This document shows positions 54,421 to 62,447 of a DNA stretch of 64,000 nt, one piece after another. Position 1 is the stretch's first letter. Each line of letters opens with the position of its first letter. The stretch is taken from assembly GCF_001583495.1 (NCBI RefSeq), contig NZ_LQAQ01000061.1:620001-684000 (forward strand). Direction: 5' to 3'. Below the pieces are notes generated by a model. The model did no database searches. It worked only from the letters and a program-made list of their open reading frames with translations, and was not told where the DNA came from. The position numbers and the translations under genes were made by a program. The stretch is from Flammeovirga sp. SJP92 (GTDB lineage Bacteria > Bacteroidota > Bacteroidia > Cytophagales > Flammeovirgaceae).

Positions 54421-54497
54421 TGGCGGAACAGACGGGACTCGAACCCGCGACCCCCTGCGTGACAGGCAGGTATTCTAACCAACTGAACTACTGCTCC
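54421..54497 (-). tRNA. tRNA-Asp (GTC), copy 3 in transcription order
   Basis: Full cloverleaf. Acceptor GGAGCAG/CTGTTCC, anticodon stem CCTGC/GCAGG with loop CTGTCAC (anticodon GTC), T-loop TTCGAGT. Discriminator G and an encoded CCA (54421-54423). Confidence 0.97.
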
Positions 54498-54532
54498 AGT
54501 CATCGGTTTTTGAAAGTTTGATGAAGACTTGT

Positions 54533-54609
54533 TGGCGGAACAGACGGGACTCGAACCCGCGCCCCCCTGCGTGACAGGCAGGTATTCTAACCATCTGAAC
54601 TACTGCTCC
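54533..54609 (-). tRNA. tRNA-Asp (GTC), middle copy, variant
   Basis: Same cloverleaf and anticodon GTC with encoded CCA. It differs from the other copies at two loop positions: A for T in the D-loop (CAGATGG) and G for T in the variable loop. Both changes avoid stems, so it should be functional. Confidence 0.95.
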
Positions 54610-54644
54610 AGTCATCGGTGTTTGAAAGTCTGATGAAGACTTGT

Positions 54645-54721
54645 TGGCGGAACAGACGGGACTCGAACCCGCGACCCCCTGCGTGACAGGCAGGTATTCT
54701 AACCAACTGAACTACTGCTCC
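54645..54721 (-). tRNA. tRNA-Asp (GTC), promoter-proximal copy
   Basis: Identical to the copy at 54421-54497. Preceded by an inverted-repeat leader and a matching promoter. Confidence 0.97.
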
Positions 54722-54872: not shown

Positions 54873-56141
54873 TCATATCAAAAAGTTGAACATATCTTGA
54901 TTTTCGTTGAGAAGCTCAAATTTATAACCTCCTTGAGTCATTCGTTCTGTCAAACTATCGAAGTCTGAAGGGTACTTTACTTCAATCCCAACAATAGCTG
55001 GAGCCTTCTCTCTGTTCACTTTTTTCGTGTATTCAAAGTGAACAATATCGTCATTTGGACCTAAGACTTCAGCCAAGAATTCTCTTAAAGCACCTGCTCT
55101 CTGAGGGAATCTCACCATGAAATAATGTTTATAACCTTCATATAAAAGAGAACGTTCCTTGATCTCCTCCATACGTCCGATATCATTATTAGACCCACTT
55201 ACTACACAGACTACTCTCTTTCCTTTTATTTCATCTTTGATAGCATCCAAAGCCGAAATCGATAAAGCTCCTGCAGGCTCTACTACAATAGCATCCTCGT
55301 TGTATAGACGCAAAATAGTCGAGCATACTTTTCCTTCAGGTACTAAAATAACATCTTCTAAAAACTGCTTTGCGATTTTAAAAGTATTATCACCCACTCT
55401 TTGTACAGCGGCACCATCCACAAATTTCTCAATTTTAGGTAATGTTACCACTTCATCTTTGTCAATAGATACCTTCATCGCTGGAGCGCCTTCAGGTTCT
55501 ACTCCTATCAGCTTTGTATTAGGGCTGATTTGCTTGAAATAACTTCCTACACCAGATGACAGTCCACCACCACCAATTGGCATTACAAGGTAATCTATAT
55601 CGTCCTTAGCGTCTTCTAAGATCTCTAGTCCCACCGTACCTTGACCTTCTATTACTTTAGGATCATCAAAAGGATGGATAAATACTCTTCCTTCTTCCTC
55701 ACAACGTTGCATGGCTGCAGCATACGCATCATCAAAAGTATCTCCAGTCAGTACTACTTCCACCATATCTTTTCCCCACATTCTCACCTGACTTACCTTT
55801 TGGTTTGGTGTTGGGGCTGGCATATAAATCACGCCATGAATACCTAGCACTTTACAAGAATAAGCTACACCTTGAGCATGATTGCCTGCACTCGCACACA
55901 CAATACCTTTCTTCTGCTCATCAATTGATAAAGATGAAATCTTATTGTAAGCGCCTCTCAACTTGTAAGAGCGTACAATCTGAAGATCTTCTCTCTTCAA
56001 CCAAATATCAGCCTGATACCTTTCAGACAAGTTCATATTTCTCATTAAAGGTGTTCTAGTAACAACATCCTTTAATTTTCTATGTGCTTTTACGATAGAT
56101 TCCACACTCGGTAAACCTACCAATTCTTCTGTTTCTGCCAT
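54873..56141 (-). CDS. ilvA: Threonine ammonia-lyase (biosynthetic threonine dehydratase)
   Basis: First committed step of isoleucine synthesis: threonine to 2-oxobutanoate. PLP-binding SYKLRGAYN (Lys), the ASAGNHAQG loop and VMPIGGGGLSSG phosphate-binding loop are intact. A C-terminal regulatory ACT-like domain (about 335-422, HYFMVRFPQRAGALREF) allows isoleucine feedback. 422 residues. It follows the ilvC fragment but a terminator (56229-56256) lies between, so it may have its own promoter. Confidence 0.95.
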   Translation of the reverse strand: MAETEELVGLPSVESIVKAHRKLKDVVTRTPLMRNMNLSERYQADIWLKREDLQIVRSYKLRGAYNKISSLSIDEQKKGIVCASAGNHAQGVAYSCKVLGIHGVIYMPAPTPNQKVSQVRMWGKDMVEVVLTGDTFDDAYAAAMQRCEEEGRVFIHPFDDPKVIEGQGTVGLEILEDAKDDIDYLVMPIGGGGLSSGVGSYFKQISPNTKLIGVEPEGAPAMKVSIDKDEVVTLPKIEKFVDGAAVQRVGDNTFKIAKQFLEDVILVPEGKVCSTILRLYNEDAIVVEPAGALSISALDAIKDEIKGKRVVCVVSGSNNDIGRMEEIKERSLLYEGYKHYFMVRFPQRAGALREFLAEVLGPNDDIVHFEYTKKVNREKAPAIVGIEVKYPSDFDSLTERMTQGGYKFELLNENQDMFNFLI

Positions 56142-56228
56142 GATATTACCCTTTGATAAGGGCGGAAGTTTTTAGTAAAATAGATTTAAGTATTTAAAAC
56201 GCCAGTACTTATTATCCATTTAAAAAGT

Positions 56229-56256
56229 AAAAAGGGACAGCCGAAACCATCCCTTT
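56229..56256 (-). terminator. Terminator between ilvC fragment and ilvA
   Basis: On the minus strand AAAGGGATGG pairs with CTGTCCCTTT (two G-U pairs), loop TTTCGG, with further T after the stem. It would cut ilvA off from the main ilv transcript unless read through. Confidence 0.65.
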
Positions 56257-56264
56257 AAATGTAT

Positions 56265-56366
56265 CTATAGATAGAGGATTTTTTGAACTTCTTGAGCTGC
56301 TTTCAAAGGACATTCGTCACGTAGTACTACGTTATCAACTACTCCTCCGAAATTTAACTCTGACAT
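56265..56366 (-). pseudogene. ilvC: N-terminal fragment of ketol-acid reductoisomerase (ilvC remnant)
   Basis: A 33-codon frame, ATG to TAG. The product begins MSELNFGGVVDNVVLRDEC and continues PLKAAQEVQK. From memory of Bacteroidota IlvC, which starts with LNFGGVxENVVTREEFPL followed by a KAxEVLK segment, this aligns across about 28 residues. It then departs (ILYL, stop) where the NADP-binding GYGVQG region should begin. Place and strand match the expected ilvC slot between ilvN and ilvA. It starts 46 bases after the ilvN stop. A functional small peptide is the alternative; an alignment is needed to settle it. Confidence 0.65.
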
Positions 56367-56412
56367 AATAATTATTATCTGTAGTTCTTATCTTATGAAA
56401 GGTGATCTCACC

Positions 56413-56955
56413 TTACACTATTGCATCCTCTTGATCGTATTCTGCAAGTAAGCTACTGATCTCCTGACGTTCTTTTGATAATGAAATTCGTCCTGAGCGA
56501 CCAAACTGCATCAATCCATAAGGTTTTAGCTCTTCATACAAAGCGTGTGTTTCTTCTTCGTGACCTGTTTTCTCAATCACTAGGAAATCTGCTTTTGCTG
56601 CTAATATTCTTGCATGATTCTTTCTAACGATCTCCTCGACCATATCTGAATCCTTAAGGTTATCAACTGCTACTTTGTATAAAGCTACTTCCTGATAGAT
56701 TGTTTCGCTGTCTTCATATAGGAAACAACGCACTACATCGATTTGCTTCTCAATTTGCTTCGCTACCTTTTCCGCTGATTCTTTACAATCTGAATAGAAT
56801 ACAATCGTGAAACGGTGAACGTGCTCAATTTCTGAAGCTGAAGTAGTTAAACTTTCAATATTGATTTTTCTTCTTGTGAAGATGATGGAGATACGGTTCG
56901 TTAAGCCTACTACGTTCTCTGTAAAAATGGATAATGTGAATCTTTGCTTTTCCAT
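56413..56955 (-). CDS. ilvN: Acetolactate synthase, small (regulatory) subunit
   Basis: Regulates the large subunit and binds valine. N-terminal ACT domain RFTLSIFTENVVGLTNRISIIF and the conserved INIESLT segment, followed by the second regulatory region (DFLVIEKTGHEEETHALYEEL). 180 residues. It is 12 bases downstream of ilvB. A short AAGGTGA/TCACCTT palindrome overlaps its stop codon. Confidence 0.94.
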   Translation of the reverse strand: MEKQRFTLSIFTENVVGLTNRISIIFTRRKINIESLTTSASEIEHVHRFTIVFYSDCKESAEKVAKQIEKQIDVVRCFLYEDSETIYQEVALYKVAVDNLKDSDMVEEIVRKNHARILAAKADFLVIEKTGHEEETHALYEELKPYGLMQFGRSGRISLSKERQEISSLLAEYDQEDAIV

Positions 56956-56967
56956 AATCTTAATTTT

Positions 56968-58710
56968 TTACTTCAAACGAACTTCTGAAACTGCGGCACC
57001 TGTTTGGATCATTGGGAAAACGTTTGATTCTTTTTCCACAACTACTTCCAAGAAACATGGTCCTTCAGTGTTTAACCATTCGTCCATTTTATCACTTAAA
57101 GATTCTCTTGTCTCTGCTTTGTCAGCTTTGATGTAATACGACTCCGCTAACTTTACAAAATCTGGATTTACCATTTCAGTGAATGAGTAACGACTATCGA
57201 AGAATAATTCTTGCCATTGACGTACCATTCCAAGGAAACTATTATTAAGTACTAGAATCTTTACCGGGATTTTATATTGGAATATTGTCCCTAACTCTTG
57301 TACTGTCATTTGGTAACCGCCATCTCCAGAAATAGAAACGACTGTTCTGTCAGGTGCTCCCATTGCTGCTCCTAATGCAGCAGGCAATGCAAATCCCATA
57401 GTTCCCAAACCACCAGAACTTACAATACTGTCTGTACGTTTGAATTCATAATAGCGAGAAGCTTCCATTTGATGTTGTCCTACATCAGTAACGATTACCG
57501 CTTCACCTTTTGTTTTATCAGAAAGCATTTTGATTACTTCAGACATCTTCACTTTTTCAGTAGAAGAACCTAATGCATAATCTTTTACTTCTTTCTGTTC
57601 GATTTCATCACAAGCGTGGAATTCAGCTAACCATTCTTCATGTTTCGCTTCTTTCAACTTAGGAGTAATTCTTTCTAAAGCCGCTTTTGCATCTGAGATC
57701 ACAGCTACATCAGTTTTTACATTTTTATCAATCTCTGAAGGATCAATTTCAATGTGAATTACTTTTGCTTGTTTTGCATATCTTTTCAAATCACCTGTAA
57801 CACGATCATCAAAACGCATACCTACTGCAATCAAAAGATCACACTCATTTGTTTTGATATTCGGTCCGTAGTTACCATGCATTCCTAAATAACCAACATA
57901 TAAAGGATGGTCATGAGGAACAGCTGACAAACCTAATAGGGTTGATGCCATTGGAATTCCAGCTTTTTCAGCGAAAGCGAGTAACTCATTTTCAGCTTTA
58001 GAAAGCATTACACCATGACCTACCAAGATATATGGTTTTTTCGCCTTGTTGATTAAATCAGCTGCAACTTCAATTGATTCTTCCGAAGCAACTGGCACTG
58101 GCTTATAACTACGTACTTTTGTACAAGGTTTATATTCAAAGTCAACCTCTTCAAATTGAGCATCCTTTGTAATATCAATTAATACAGGACCTGGACGACC
58201 ACTTTTCGCAATGTAGAACGCTTTTGCAATCGCTTCAGGAATTTCAGATGCTTTTGTTACTTGGTAATTCCACTTCGTTACTGGAGTAGAAATACCTACA
58301 ACATCTGTCTCTTGGAATGCATCAGTTCCTAACAAATGAGAAGCTACTTGACCTGTGATAGCTACCATAGGAGTAGAATCAATCATTGCATCTGCAAGAC
58401 CTGTAATCAAGTTTGTCGCTCCTGGACCAGAAGTTGCAACACAGACACCCACTTTATGATTGACTCGAGAATATCCTTGTGCAGCATGAGCAGCACCCTG
58501 CTCGTGACGTACAAGAATGTGGTTTAACTTGTCCTCATAATGATAGAGCTTATCATACACTGGCATAATCGCTCCACCTGGGTAACCAAAGAGTGTATCT
58601 ACACCTTCCTCAATTAGTGCCATTAACACTGCCTCTGCTCCCGTTACTCTTTGTGGTTTTTGACCTACTGTCTTTGCTTCCTTGGCCATTTCTTTTGTCG
58701 CTGTACTCAT
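56968..58710 (-). CDS. ilvB: Acetolactate synthase, large (catalytic) subunit
   Basis: ThDP- and FAD-dependent enzyme condensing two pyruvate, or pyruvate with 2-oxobutanoate. The catalytic Glu is in RHEQGAAHAAQGY; the FAD region has VAITGQVASHLLGTDAFQE; the ThDP/Mg motif is GDGGYQMTVQEL. 580 residues. Third gene of the operon, 33 bases after ilvD. Confidence 0.97.
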   Translation of the reverse strand: MSTATKEMAKEAKTVGQKPQRVTGAEAVLMALIEEGVDTLFGYPGGAIMPVYDKLYHYEDKLNHILVRHEQGAAHAAQGYSRVNHKVGVCVATSGPGATNLITGLADAMIDSTPMVAITGQVASHLLGTDAFQETDVVGISTPVTKWNYQVTKASEIPEAIAKAFYIAKSGRPGPVLIDITKDAQFEEVDFEYKPCTKVRSYKPVPVASEESIEVAADLINKAKKPYILVGHGVMLSKAENELLAFAEKAGIPMASTLLGLSAVPHDHPLYVGYLGMHGNYGPNIKTNECDLLIAVGMRFDDRVTGDLKRYAKQAKVIHIEIDPSEIDKNVKTDVAVISDAKAALERITPKLKEAKHEEWLAEFHACDEIEQKEVKDYALGSSTEKVKMSEVIKMLSDKTKGEAVIVTDVGQHQMEASRYYEFKRTDSIVSSGGLGTMGFALPAALGAAMGAPDRTVVSISGDGGYQMTVQELGTIFQYKIPVKILVLNNSFLGMVRQWQELFFDSRYSFTEMVNPDFVKLAESYYIKADKAETRESLSDKMDEWLNTEGPCFLEVVVEKESNVFPMIQTGAAVSEVRLK

Positions 58711-58743
58711 ATTGAAACAATTTTGTACTTCTCTTATTACTGA

Positions 58744-60426
58744 TTAAAATTCATCAGTAACACATCCTTCAGATGCTGAAGAAACTGTTTTTATATATTT
58801 ATATAAGATTCCTTTCTTAAACTTAGGCTCTGGTGCTACCCACGCCTTTCTTCTTTCTGCCAATTCCTCGTCAGAAACTGCCACTTCGATTTTGTTAGTA
58901 ACCGCATCAATTGTGATGATATCACCATCCTCTACTAATGCTAAGTTACCACCAACTGCTGCTTCAGGTGTAATGTGTCCTACTACGAAACCGTGAGTAC
59001 CACCTGAGAAACGTCCATCAGTAATCAAAGCTACGTCTTTACCAAGACCTGCACCCATAATTGCTGAAGTTGGCTTTAACATCTCCGGCATACCAGGACC
59101 ACCTTTTGGACCTTCGTAACGGATCACAACCACTTCACCTTTGCTTACTTCTCCGTTAGAAATACCTTCAATCACAGCAAACTCATCGTTGAATACTTTT
59201 GCTGGACCTACGAACTTCTCACCTTCTTTACCAGTGATCTTTGCTACAGAACCTTCTGTTGCTAGGTTACCGTAAAGGATTTGTAAGTGACCAGTTGATT
59301 TGATTGGATTATCTTTAGGTCTCATCAAGTCTTGATCACTACCTAGTGGATCAACATCTGCTAAGTTTTCAGCAATTGTTTTACCAGTAACTGTCATACA
59401 AGAACCGTCTAATAAGCCCCAGTTCAATAATGTTTTCATTACTGCAGGGATACCACCTACTGCAAATACATCTTCCATCAAGTATTTACCTGAAGGCTTC
59501 AAGTCTGCAAAGAATGGCACTTTATCAGAAACTCTTTGAATATCATCTAATGTCAACTCAATGTCTGCTGCTTTCGCGATAGCCAACATATGCAATGTAG
59601 CATTTGTTGATCCACCTAAAGCCATAATTACAGCTAAAGCGTTTTCAAAAGATGCTTTCGTTAAGATATCTGATGGTTTTAAGTCTAACTCTAAAAGGTT
59701 ACGGATCGCAGGACCTAAGTTCTGGCACTCGTCTTTTTTGTTTTGACTTACTGCAGGGTTTGATGAAGAGTAAGGTAAACTCATACCCATTGCCTCAATC
59801 GCTGAAGCCATAGTGTTAGCAGTATACATACCACCACAAGCACCTGCACCTGGGATCGCATTTTTAATTACTCCCTTGTAATCTTCATCTGAAATTGTAC
59901 CGGCGATTTTTTCACCTAATGCTTCAAAAGCAGATACAATATTCAATTTTTTCTTTTTCCAGCATCCTGATGCAATAGTACCACCATACAACATGATTGT
60001 TGGACGGTTGACACGGCACATTGCCATCATGGCACCTGGCATATTTTTATCACAACCTACTACAGTAATTAAACCATCGTAGAATTGTCCGTTTGTAACT
60101 GTTTCAACTGAATCAGCAATGATATCTCTTGAAGGAAGAGAGTAACGCATACCGATAGTACCGTTTGTGATACCATCACTTACTCCAATAGTATTGAAAA
60201 TCAAGCCGACCATGTCTGACTTTTGAACACCCACTTTCACTTCAGCAGCAAGGCCGTTCAAGTGCATGTTACATGTGTTTCCCTCATATCCAGTACTAGC
60301 AATACCGATTTGAGGCTTGTTCATATCCTCTTCCGTCAACCCAATACCGTATAACATGGCCTGAGCTGCAGGCTGTGTATCGTCTTGAGTAATTGTGCGG
60401 CTATGCTTGTTTAACATCTCTGCCAT
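58744..60426 (-). CDS. ilvD: Dihydroxy-acid dehydratase
   Basis: Fe-S dehydratase producing the 2-oxoacids of valine and isoleucine. Cluster cysteines are visible in [18 protein letters not shown] and [15 protein letters not shown]; the C-terminal [16 protein letters not shown] form (here [12 protein letters not shown]) is present. 560 residues. Follows ilvE by 41 bases. Confidence 0.97.
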
Positions 60427-60467: not shown

Positions 60468-61364
60468 TTAAATAATAGAGTAGTTATCATACTCACTCTG
60501 CGTCACAAACTGTCTGTATTTCTCAAACACCTCGCAACCAATTGTATCTTCCCAGTTCTTTTTCATTGGCTGACGGTCAATACTGCTGATGCCAGTAATC
60601 TGAGCTGCAGTACCAGTGAAGAACGCTCCGTCAATATCTTTTAGATCTTCCGGTTTGAATTGTCCTTCCACTACCTCAACACCTAAGCTTTTAGCTATTC
60701 CGAAAACTACATTTCTAGTAATTCCTGGGTAGATATGTCCTTTTTGAGAAGTATAAAGCTTTCCTCCTTTTTCAAAGAAGAAATTAGCACCTGTCCCTTC
60801 CGCTACATATCCTTCAACATCTAATAATAAAGCATCATCAAAACCTCTGTCTTTTGCTTCTGCAATAGAAACGATACTATTAATATAGTGTCCAGAGATT
60901 TTTGCCTCTACATTAAATGAATAAGGACTAGGACGTGTATATTTTGATATAGTGATATCTAATAAGTCTTTTCCTAAGAATTTATCCCATCTCCAAGCTG
61001 CAATAAACAAGTTATGCGTTTTGGTAGGTGTTAAATCCATATTGGCACTAGCATATACTAAAGGTCTAACATATGCATCAGTAAAGCCGTTTTCTTCAAG
61101 TAATTGATAAGTAATCCCTACTAATTCATCAACACTATAAGGTAAATCGAGGTGCATTGTTTTTGCAGCATCCAGGAAACGTGTGTAATGTTCCTTCGCT
61201 TTAAAAATATGCGGTCCCAATGCTGTATCATAAGCTCTTACAGCATCAAAAACACCATTACCATAGTGCAATGACTGAGAAAATAAATCAGCCTTTGCCT
61301 CTTCAGCTTTCACGAATTCTCCATTGTGGAAAATCACCGTATTTTTGTCATAATATTTCAACAT
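60468..61364 (-). CDS. ilvE: Branched-chain amino acid aminotransferase
   Basis: PLP-dependent class IV aminotransferase doing the last step of Val, Leu and Ile synthesis. SLHYGNGVFDAVRAYDT, AKISGHYINSIVSIAEAK (Lys for PLP in the SGHYINS region), DALLLDVEGYVAEGTGANFFFE and TGTAAQITGISSID are family motifs. 298 residues. First structural gene after the attenuator; ATG lies 62 bases beyond the attenuator T tract. Confidence 0.96.
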   Translation of the reverse strand: MLKYYDKNTVIFHNGEFVKAEEAKADLFSQSLHYGNGVFDAVRAYDTALGPHIFKAKEHYTRFLDAAKTMHLDLPYSVDELVGITYQLLEENGFTDAYVRPLVYASANMDLTPTKTHNLFIAAWRWDKFLGKDLLDITISKYTRPSPYSFNVEAKISGHYINSIVSIAEAKDRGFDDALLLDVEGYVAEGTGANFFFEKGGKLYTSQKGHIYPGITRNVVFGIAKSLGVEVVEGQFKPEDLKDIDGAFFTGTAAQITGISSIDRQPMKKNWEDTIGCEVFEKYRQFVTQSEYDNYSII

Positions 61365-61425
61365 GGCAGAAGACTATTAATTGGTTACACAACTACTTTT
61401 AAGATGATTTGGAATGTTTAAACAA

Positions 61426-61463
61426 TAAAAAAACCACTGTCAGAATTTTTGTCTTGACAATGG
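61426..61463 (-). terminator. Attenuator terminator of the ilv operon
   Basis: On the minus strand CCATTGTCA (61455-61463) pairs with TGACAGTGG (61434-61442), followed by seven T. It stands between leader peptide and ilvE. Confidence 0.85.
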
Positions 61464-61503
61464 CCGTTCTTTATTATGATTTATGCAATATAAGATCCTG
61501 CCA

Positions 61504-61575
61504 TTATCTTCCTTTGAGAAGGACGACAATAGTATTAATAATAATAAGGACGATATTTTGCGTTTTCTTCAACAT
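61504..61575 (-). CDS. ilv operon leader peptide (23 aa)
   Basis: ATG 61575 to TAA 61504. Residues 8-20 read IVLIIINTIVVLL: eleven of thirteen are Ile, Val or Leu. The start is about 13 bases into the predicted transcript. A second frame from ATG 61585 encodes a Tyr-ending peptide and is not BCAA-rich. It senses charging of branched-chain tRNAs rather than having a function of its own. Confidence 0.8.
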   Translation of the reverse strand: MLKKTQNIVLIIINTIVVLLKGR

Positions 61576-61594
61576 TTTCGATCATTGTTTACAT

Positions 61595-61627
61595 CAAATA
61601 TAAAGATCTAACTTTTTATTTTGCAAA
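61595..61627 (-). promoter_or_regulatory. Promoter of the ilv operon
   Basis: TTTG (61624-61627), 21-base spacer, TATATTTG (61595-61602), an exact TAnnTTTG. Transcription would start near 61588, just before the leader peptide. The remaining gap to 61805 shows no further feature. Confidence 0.7.
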
Positions 61628-61805
61628 TATATATACGAATGAAGGATTAGTTTTTAGAAATAATTACGAATTCTAAACTATGTTTTTTCTTTATTTCATA
61701 GATGAAACATTGATTTTAATATATTAGAGCAAAGTAATAAATATTATTCCTAATGATTTTTCATATCTATTATATTTGTAAAAAATGCAATAAAAGTGTT
61801 GTTAT

Positions 61806-62447
61806 ATGATTCAAAAAGTAGGTAGTGTTTTTAGAAATAAAATTTTCCCTAGTCTAGTTTGGAAAAAAGAAGCCTCTCCTTCTCCTGTATTATATCTAAC
61901 ATTTGATGACGGACCAATTCCTGAAATCACGCCATGGGTGTTAGAAGTATTAAGAAAATATAATGCAAAAGCTACTTTCTTTTGTGTGGGAGACAACATT
62001 CGTAAACATCCAAGTGTCTATCATCAAGTATTGGAAGAAGGGCATCAGGTGGGAAACCATACTTTCAATCATTTGCAATATTGGAAGAAAAGCCTTCCTA
62101 ATTATATGAAAAATGTAAAAGAGTGTGATGAGGTAATGAGAAGTAACCCTCTTTTTAAAGTTGACTCCGAAAAACCGCTTTTCAGACCTCCACATGGGCA
62201 AATCGGAAAAAAAATGATGCAACAATTATTGGAAGACTATGAAATTATTATGTGGCATGTTTTGACAAGAGACTATAATAAGAATTATAAAAAGGAAAAT
62301 TGTTTAAAAGCAGCGATAAAAAATACAGAGAATGGCTCTATCATTGTTTTTCATGACAGTATTAAAGCAGAAAAGAATTTAAAGTATGTTTTGCCCCGAT
62401 TTTTAGAATATTTTTCAAATAAAGGTTATGAATTTCATACACTTTGA
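61806..62447 (+). CDS. Polysaccharide deacetylase (NodB-like)
   Basis: Carbohydrate esterase family 4. LYLTFDDGP (motif 1, base Asp), GNHTFNHL (motif 2, metal His pair), RPPHGQ (motif 3), and IIVFHDS (motif 5, His). 213 residues with no obvious signal peptide. Likely acts on peptidoglycan or another N-acetyl-glycan. Separated from parA by 78 bases on the same strand. Confidence 0.92.
   Translation: MIQKVGSVFRNKIFPSLVWKKEASPSPVLYLTFDDGPIPEITPWVLEVLRKYNAKATFFCVGDNIRKHPSVYHQVLEEGHQVGNHTFNHLQYWKKSLPNYMKNVKECDEVMRSNPLFKVDSEKPLFRPPHGQIGKKMMQQLLEDYEIIMWHVLTRDYNKNYKKENCLKAAIKNTENGSIIVFHDSIKAEKNLKYVLPRFLEYFSNKGYEFHTL

Follow-up and report, generated by a model that had tools for sequence, protein, structure and literature searches.

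The window (that is, the whole 64,000-nucleotide stretch of the Flammeovirga sp. SJP92 genome analysed here) carries on its minus strand ilvE (60468–61364, start at 61364), which we take to encode a branched-chain aminotransferase, followed by ilvD (58744–60426), ilvB (56968–58710), ilvN (56413–56955) and ilvA (54873–56141); all five names were assigned by recognizing the sequences and are provisional. The ilvE product shares 99–100% identity with three Flammeovirga records, from F. aprica, F. sp. OC4 and F. sp. EKP202. The five genes probably form a single transcript, with ilvE as the first gene under the control proposed below and the remainder of the operon (54873–60426) behind it. The neighbouring upstream gene (61806–62447) lies on the plus strand, divergent from the ilv operon, and because it points away, a minus-strand terminator in front of ilvE can hardly serve any transcript other than the operon's own. 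Directly downstream of ilvA, three tRNA-Asp genes stand in tandem (54421–54721, minus strand).

Upstream of ilvE, the minus strand holds a putative promoter of the Bacteroidota −33/−7 type, in which a TTTG (putative −33 element; 61624–61627) precedes TATATTTG (putative −7 element; 61595–61602) by 21 nt; the exact TAnnTTTG motif reported in the initial annotation is thus present (61602–61595). All nine genomes of the genus have TTTGC at the same distance from TAnnTTTG and an invariant TATATTTG, and among the 41 leaders of the order described below, 17 have TAnnTTTG at most 70 nt upstream, compared with 5% of shuffles. Transcription would start a few bases 3′ of the −7 element, at about 61588–61590. 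Between this promoter and the terminator before ilvE lies a leader ORF of 23 codons, MLKKTQNIVLIIINTIVVLLKGR (61504–61575, minus strand; ATG at 61575, TAA ending at 61504), in which 11 of the 13 residues at positions 8–20 (IVLIIINTIVVLL) are Ile, Leu or Val, exactly as first read. Such clustering of codons for the products of the operon is characteristic of attenuators and marks the ORF as a putative sensor of the Ile/Val/Leu supply. Inspection by eye revealed no apparent Shine–Dalgarno sequence before the leader, and the stretch between its stop codon and the terminator hairpin is A/T-rich. Another ATG (61583–61585, minus strand), a few bases from the putative transcription start, is invariant in the nine genus genomes, but its frame is not; we rejected it as the leader start, as it lies in a different frame that, judged by eye, is truncated by a stop in two of the genomes (G001 and G006).

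The 165-nt leader RNA is predicted to fold with a minimum free energy (MFE) of −39.9 kcal/mol (z −4.65), which none of 200 shuffles equalled, and the MFE structure, computed without a ribosome, combines a 1:2 hairpin with a 3:4 terminator. Segment 1 (CUAUUGUC, then UCCUU; 61519–61532, minus strand) covers the codons Ile16–Leu19 and pairs with positions 61514–61501 of segment 2; the resulting hairpin (61532–61501; CUAUUGUC-UCCUU with AAGGA-GAUAAUGG) alone reaches −13.1 kcal/mol (z −3.08; equalled by 2 of 200 shuffles). Segment 2 (61500–61514, minus strand) comprises this 3′ arm (61501–61514) and an overlapping antiterminator arm, GATAATGGC (61508–61500), which includes the leader stop codon, as had been claimed. 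Segment 3, GCCATTGTC (61456–61464, minus strand), can pair with segment 2 to form the antiterminator or with segment 4 to form the terminator. The predicted intrinsic terminator formed by 3:4 and its U tract occupies 61427–61464 (minus strand; stem 61464–61433, with a T run behind it), and the fold of 61426–61470 has an energy of −15.2 kcal/mol (z −4.14; 0 of 200 shuffles as good). For the 2:3 antiterminator, computed for an RNA that ends just before segment 4 and lacks segment 1, the corresponding values are −15.3 kcal/mol, z −4.37 and 0 of 200 shuffles. A simple terminator scan listed no terminator at the ilv leader; its rule admits neither the bulge in the stem nor the wide loop. The predicted folds therefore provide both an intrinsic terminator before the first gene and a mutually exclusive 2:3 pairing, and the pairing of GATAATGGC with part of the terminator (GCCATTGTC) that the initial annotation proposed is found in the antiterminator fold.

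The initial annotation described these parts as a single switch rather than the four-segment layout of Enterobacteria, a description that does not survive, as segment 1 had been missed. The 1:2 hairpin carries the codons Ile16-Val17-Val18-Leu19 in its 5′ arm, and the antiterminator arm forms the end of its 3′ arm, so that the arrangement has four segments: this hairpin over the regulatory codons, which defines the enterobacterial layout, is part of the MFE structure in the window, and 1:2, 2:3 and 3:4 are all present. When segment 1 is left out, segments 2, 3 and 4 adopt the terminator at equilibrium rather than the antiterminator, so that antitermination must be kinetic; kinetic switching is also a trait of other attenuators. 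An RNA that contains segment 1 but in which segment 4 has not yet been made retains 2:3, so the order in which the helices form is important.

Within the genus, the leader frame is retained in nine of nine genomes and the pairs of the 2:3 helix in 100% of cells (slid versions reach up to 62%), so the joint loss of frame and arms in related genomes, which would have spoken against the initial annotation, was not seen. These nine sequences are close relatives with only five distinct peptides, and seven of the nine 2:3 pairs never vary and are uninformative either way. The pairs of the 1:2 helix can form in 86% of cells, compared with at most 73% when the helix is slid. A 57-nt stretch containing this hairpin folds better than shuffles (p ≤ 0.05) in eight of the nine members, and in one member (L008) it does so with different pairs. 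No two-sided compensatory change was found in either helix among the nine genomes, and the support for 2:3 thus rests on its conservation and on complementarity across families.

For this wider comparison, 241 genomes of the order were searched for ilvE, which yielded 53 matches at E ≤ 1e-60, and a leader was defined as an ATG frame of 10–45 codons with at least 8 Ile, Leu or Val in 12 residues, at most 400 nt upstream of ilvE. Such leaders precede 40 of the 53 orthologues, as against 2 of 53 on the antisense strand and 57 of 2,120 dinucleotide shuffles (2.7%); 12 of the 53 upstream regions have none, and one leader with a GTG start (L011) was added by hand to give a set of 41. A hairpin with a U tract of −12.5 kcal/mol or better lies behind all 41 (a count made without a shuffle control). 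Compared with 400 shuffles, the 2:3 duplex is significant at p ≤ 0.05 in 38 of the 41 (the exceptions being L019, L039 and L048) and at p ≤ 0.01 in 25, where two leaders of family f5 (L021 and L050, from genomes G021 and G069) enter the 38 through a second terminator that lies farther away; scored on the nearer terminator, their 2:3 p values are 0.002 and 0.005. The mean 2:3 energy is −16.4 kcal/mol with a leader's own partner and −10.1 kcal/mol with partners swapped between families, and the own partner ranks within the best tenth in 32 of 41 leaders. As own partners outscore swapped ones, arms of differing sequence evidently stay complementary. In 37 of the 41, segment 2 and the leader stop codon overlap (20% would be expected if the position of segment 2 were uniform, the partner of segment 3 having been sought from the leader start on); in two of the four exceptions segment 2 begins immediately behind the stop, and the remaining two are the leaders to which the farther terminator had been assigned. 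Across 37 distinct leaders, Ile, Leu and Val account for 78–92% of residues at the positions 6 to 13 codons ahead of the stop, and for 5% at the final position. The 57-nt 1:2 region beats shuffles at p ≤ 0.05 in only 16 of the 41. The placement of segment 2 on the stop codon suggests that a ribosome that has reached this codon would cover the segment directly, with 1:2 serving as an extra lock in Flammeovirga.

Computation established the leader ORF, the alternative folds together with their conservation, and the order in which the parts stand; from these we infer the start site, leader translation, stalling, termination and amino-acid response of a ribosome-mediated (leader-peptide) transcription attenuator with the classical 1:2, 2:3 and 3:4 segments, which controls this branched-chain amino acid operon with a probability that we put at roughly 0.9. 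The initial annotation had named the same mechanism, and both the anatomy and the order-wide conservation strongly support that part of it, whereas its two-segment layout has to be given up. RNA polymerase would start about 14 nt before the leader ATG, with a ribosome following. If Ile-, Val- or Leu-tRNA were short, the ribosome would stall at Ile16-Val17-Val18-Leu19 and cover segment 1, leaving segment 2 free to pair with the emerging segment 3, so that the terminator would be blocked and ilvEDBNA transcribed. If the amino acids were plentiful, the ribosome would reach the stop codon inside segment 2 and cover that segment; once it was released, segment 1 would capture segment 2, the 3:4 terminator would form and transcription would end before ilvE.

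The strongest competitor is a two-segment switch between 2:3 and 3:4 that makes no use of segment 1; segment 2 would simply be covered once a ribosome had reached the stop codon. The frequent placement of segment 2 on the stop codon across the order agrees with this reading, as do the 25 of 41 leaders in which the 1:2 region gives p > 0.05 against shuffles, and outside the genus the two-segment form may therefore operate. In the window, however, the 1:2 hairpin belongs to the MFE structure (−13.1 kcal/mol, z −3.08) and its region is significant in nearly all genus members, though in L008 with other pairs; we thus consider the two-segment form unlikely here.

Two further readings would remove the leader peptide from the mechanism. 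A ligand-binding riboswitch or T-box that contains an I/L/V-rich frame by accident would share the terminator/antiterminator anatomy, which is common to such elements, but the arms differ between families while the composition of the peptide is kept, which fits a codon sensor and not a ligand pocket, and apart from the three tRNAs no Rfam family, leader-peptide and T-box models included, reaches its gathering score anywhere in the window. Even at E ≤ 10, a search of 61300–61750 returned only seven matches, to snoRNA and miRNA families and to viral and unrelated bacterial ones, none of which came near its gathering score, and we regard this explanation as very improbable. A constitutive terminator behind a chance ORF, with no regulation at all, is harder still to believe: several families preserve the composition and position of the leader as well as the 2:3 complementarity to a degree that far exceeds shuffles, and the terminator separates the first gene of the operon from its likely promoter, the gene upstream being divergent. 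We accordingly retain the four-segment attenuator as the preferred interpretation for the window.

Codon choice offers a possible refinement of this attenuator. The leader in the window encodes each of its three Val residues by GTC, and 27 of 28 Val codons in the nine genus leaders are likewise GTC; GTC accounts for 8 of 168 Val codons in the five operon genes and for 90 of 923 in the 29 window ORFs of at least 250 codons. Over the 37 distinct leaders, the figure is 70 of 120, a raw count that does not factor in each genome's own codon usage. Pairing may be the reason why GTC is kept inside segment 1; the GTC of Val9 falls outside that segment. That the leader senses rare codons is a lead only.

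Several ilvE upstream regions hold more than one element. Three leaders (L042 and L044, from G062 and G113, and L046, from G203) belong to pairs of serial I/L/V-rich leaders, each with a terminator, in the 400 nt that precede ilvE; in G062 and G113, both terminators of the series have their own antiterminator pairing (p 0.002–0.01), and in G203 the pairings reach p 0.06–0.07. In the two f5 leaders, the ilv leader and its terminator are followed by a second short frame (MKKTIVTTYYSDSTCCFYQQSKKQLIYV in L021, −135 to −48 from ilvE; MHTLSRKYSKNACCSTFISKQQVIYV in L050, −166 to −85); the two frames each contain a Cys-Cys pair, resemble each other at their ends and are followed by the second terminator, for which no significant 2:3 partner was found (p 0.39 and 0.75). 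Combining these features, one may tentatively envision the ilv attenuators of Cytophagales as a distinct, recurrently rewired class, a picture that we consider possible but rather doubtful: the antiterminator arm would lie over the stop codon, occupancy of the stop would be the main 'off' signal, 1:2 would be optional by family, host-rare codons (Val GTC) would read one tRNA isoacceptor, and some lineages would have two attenuators in series.

Candidate leaders also occur at some other loci of the phylum. An ilvD query gave matches at E ≤ 1e-120 in 115 of 158 genomes, and in a sample of 60 ilvD upstream regions a leader was found in 19, compared with 6 of 60 antisense and 44 of 1,800 shuffles. 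Within family f41, 10 of 15 regions carry what is by eye one recurrent leader type (MLSTVISLVIIRVIGI-YRPGK and kin; L093, L095–L098, L100, L111, L115, L121 and L123), and an eleventh leader is unrelated; nine other families of the sample have no leader. In the nine genus genomes, no proximal His- or Leu-rich leader was found at hisG or leuA: the matches (3 of 9 and 2 of 9, respectively) all lie 0.7–1.2 kb upstream, and the three at hisG, alike by eye, were rejected as leaders because they are too far upstream. Leader matches at thrA number 0 of 9, at loci that hardly reach the gene start.

The Bacteroid-trp RNA (RF01692), which is tied to trp genes and attenuation, has no match in the window and differs in this respect from the ilv element. 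It is listed as a candidate cis-regulatory RNA for Bacteroidetes (PMC2864571), and a 2021 transcriptome study of Flavobacterium psychrophilum found strong clues that leader-peptide attenuation acts in front of amino-acid operons (PMC9723704); both weaken the remark in the initial annotation that such a set is less familiar in Bacteroidota. The F. psychrophilum proposal concerns the same phylum and the same mechanism, and its passages on attenuation name no ilv operon, segments or peptide (PMC9723704). In B. thetaiotaomicron, short ORFs reminiscent of leader peptides have been described (PMC7366714), and a 2010 survey, according to which leader-peptide systems had to its authors' knowledge not been shown outside Proteobacteria and Actinobacteria, added Firmicutes (PMC2965389). 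The Corynebacterium ilvBNC attenuator, for which uORF- or hairpin-based control of branched-chain amino acid synthesis is described (PMC11857589, PMC10272879), is actinobacterial and belongs to a different operon, and is likened here by description. A limited search of the open literature returned no description of the Flammeovirga ilv element.

In view of the F. psychrophilum and B. thetaiotaomicron reports, the phylum is not new ground for leader-peptide attenuation, and the finding would overturn nothing established: the mechanism is classical, and the ilv switch of this marine bacterium is essentially ordinary, though well supported. Its value lies in providing a well-supported classical case in a phylum that makes no typical use of Shine–Dalgarno sequences and in which, to our knowledge, ribosome–polymerase coupling has been little studied, and in a conserved set of ilv leaders that serves as a natural experiment on which parts an attenuator needs (2:3 and the stop-codon overlap) and which are optional (1:2). 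The closest likeness is to the ilvGMEDA, leu and thr attenuators of Enterobacteria, with which the element shares a short ORF rich in product codons, the 1:2, 2:3 and 3:4 pairings, a terminator before the first gene and, in the case of ilvGMEDA and leu, control of a branched-chain amino acid biosynthetic operon. It differs from them in matching no Rfam leader family, in having no apparent Shine–Dalgarno sequence and a Bacteroidota-type promoter, in placing the leader stop codon within segment 2 and in having ilvE as the first gene.
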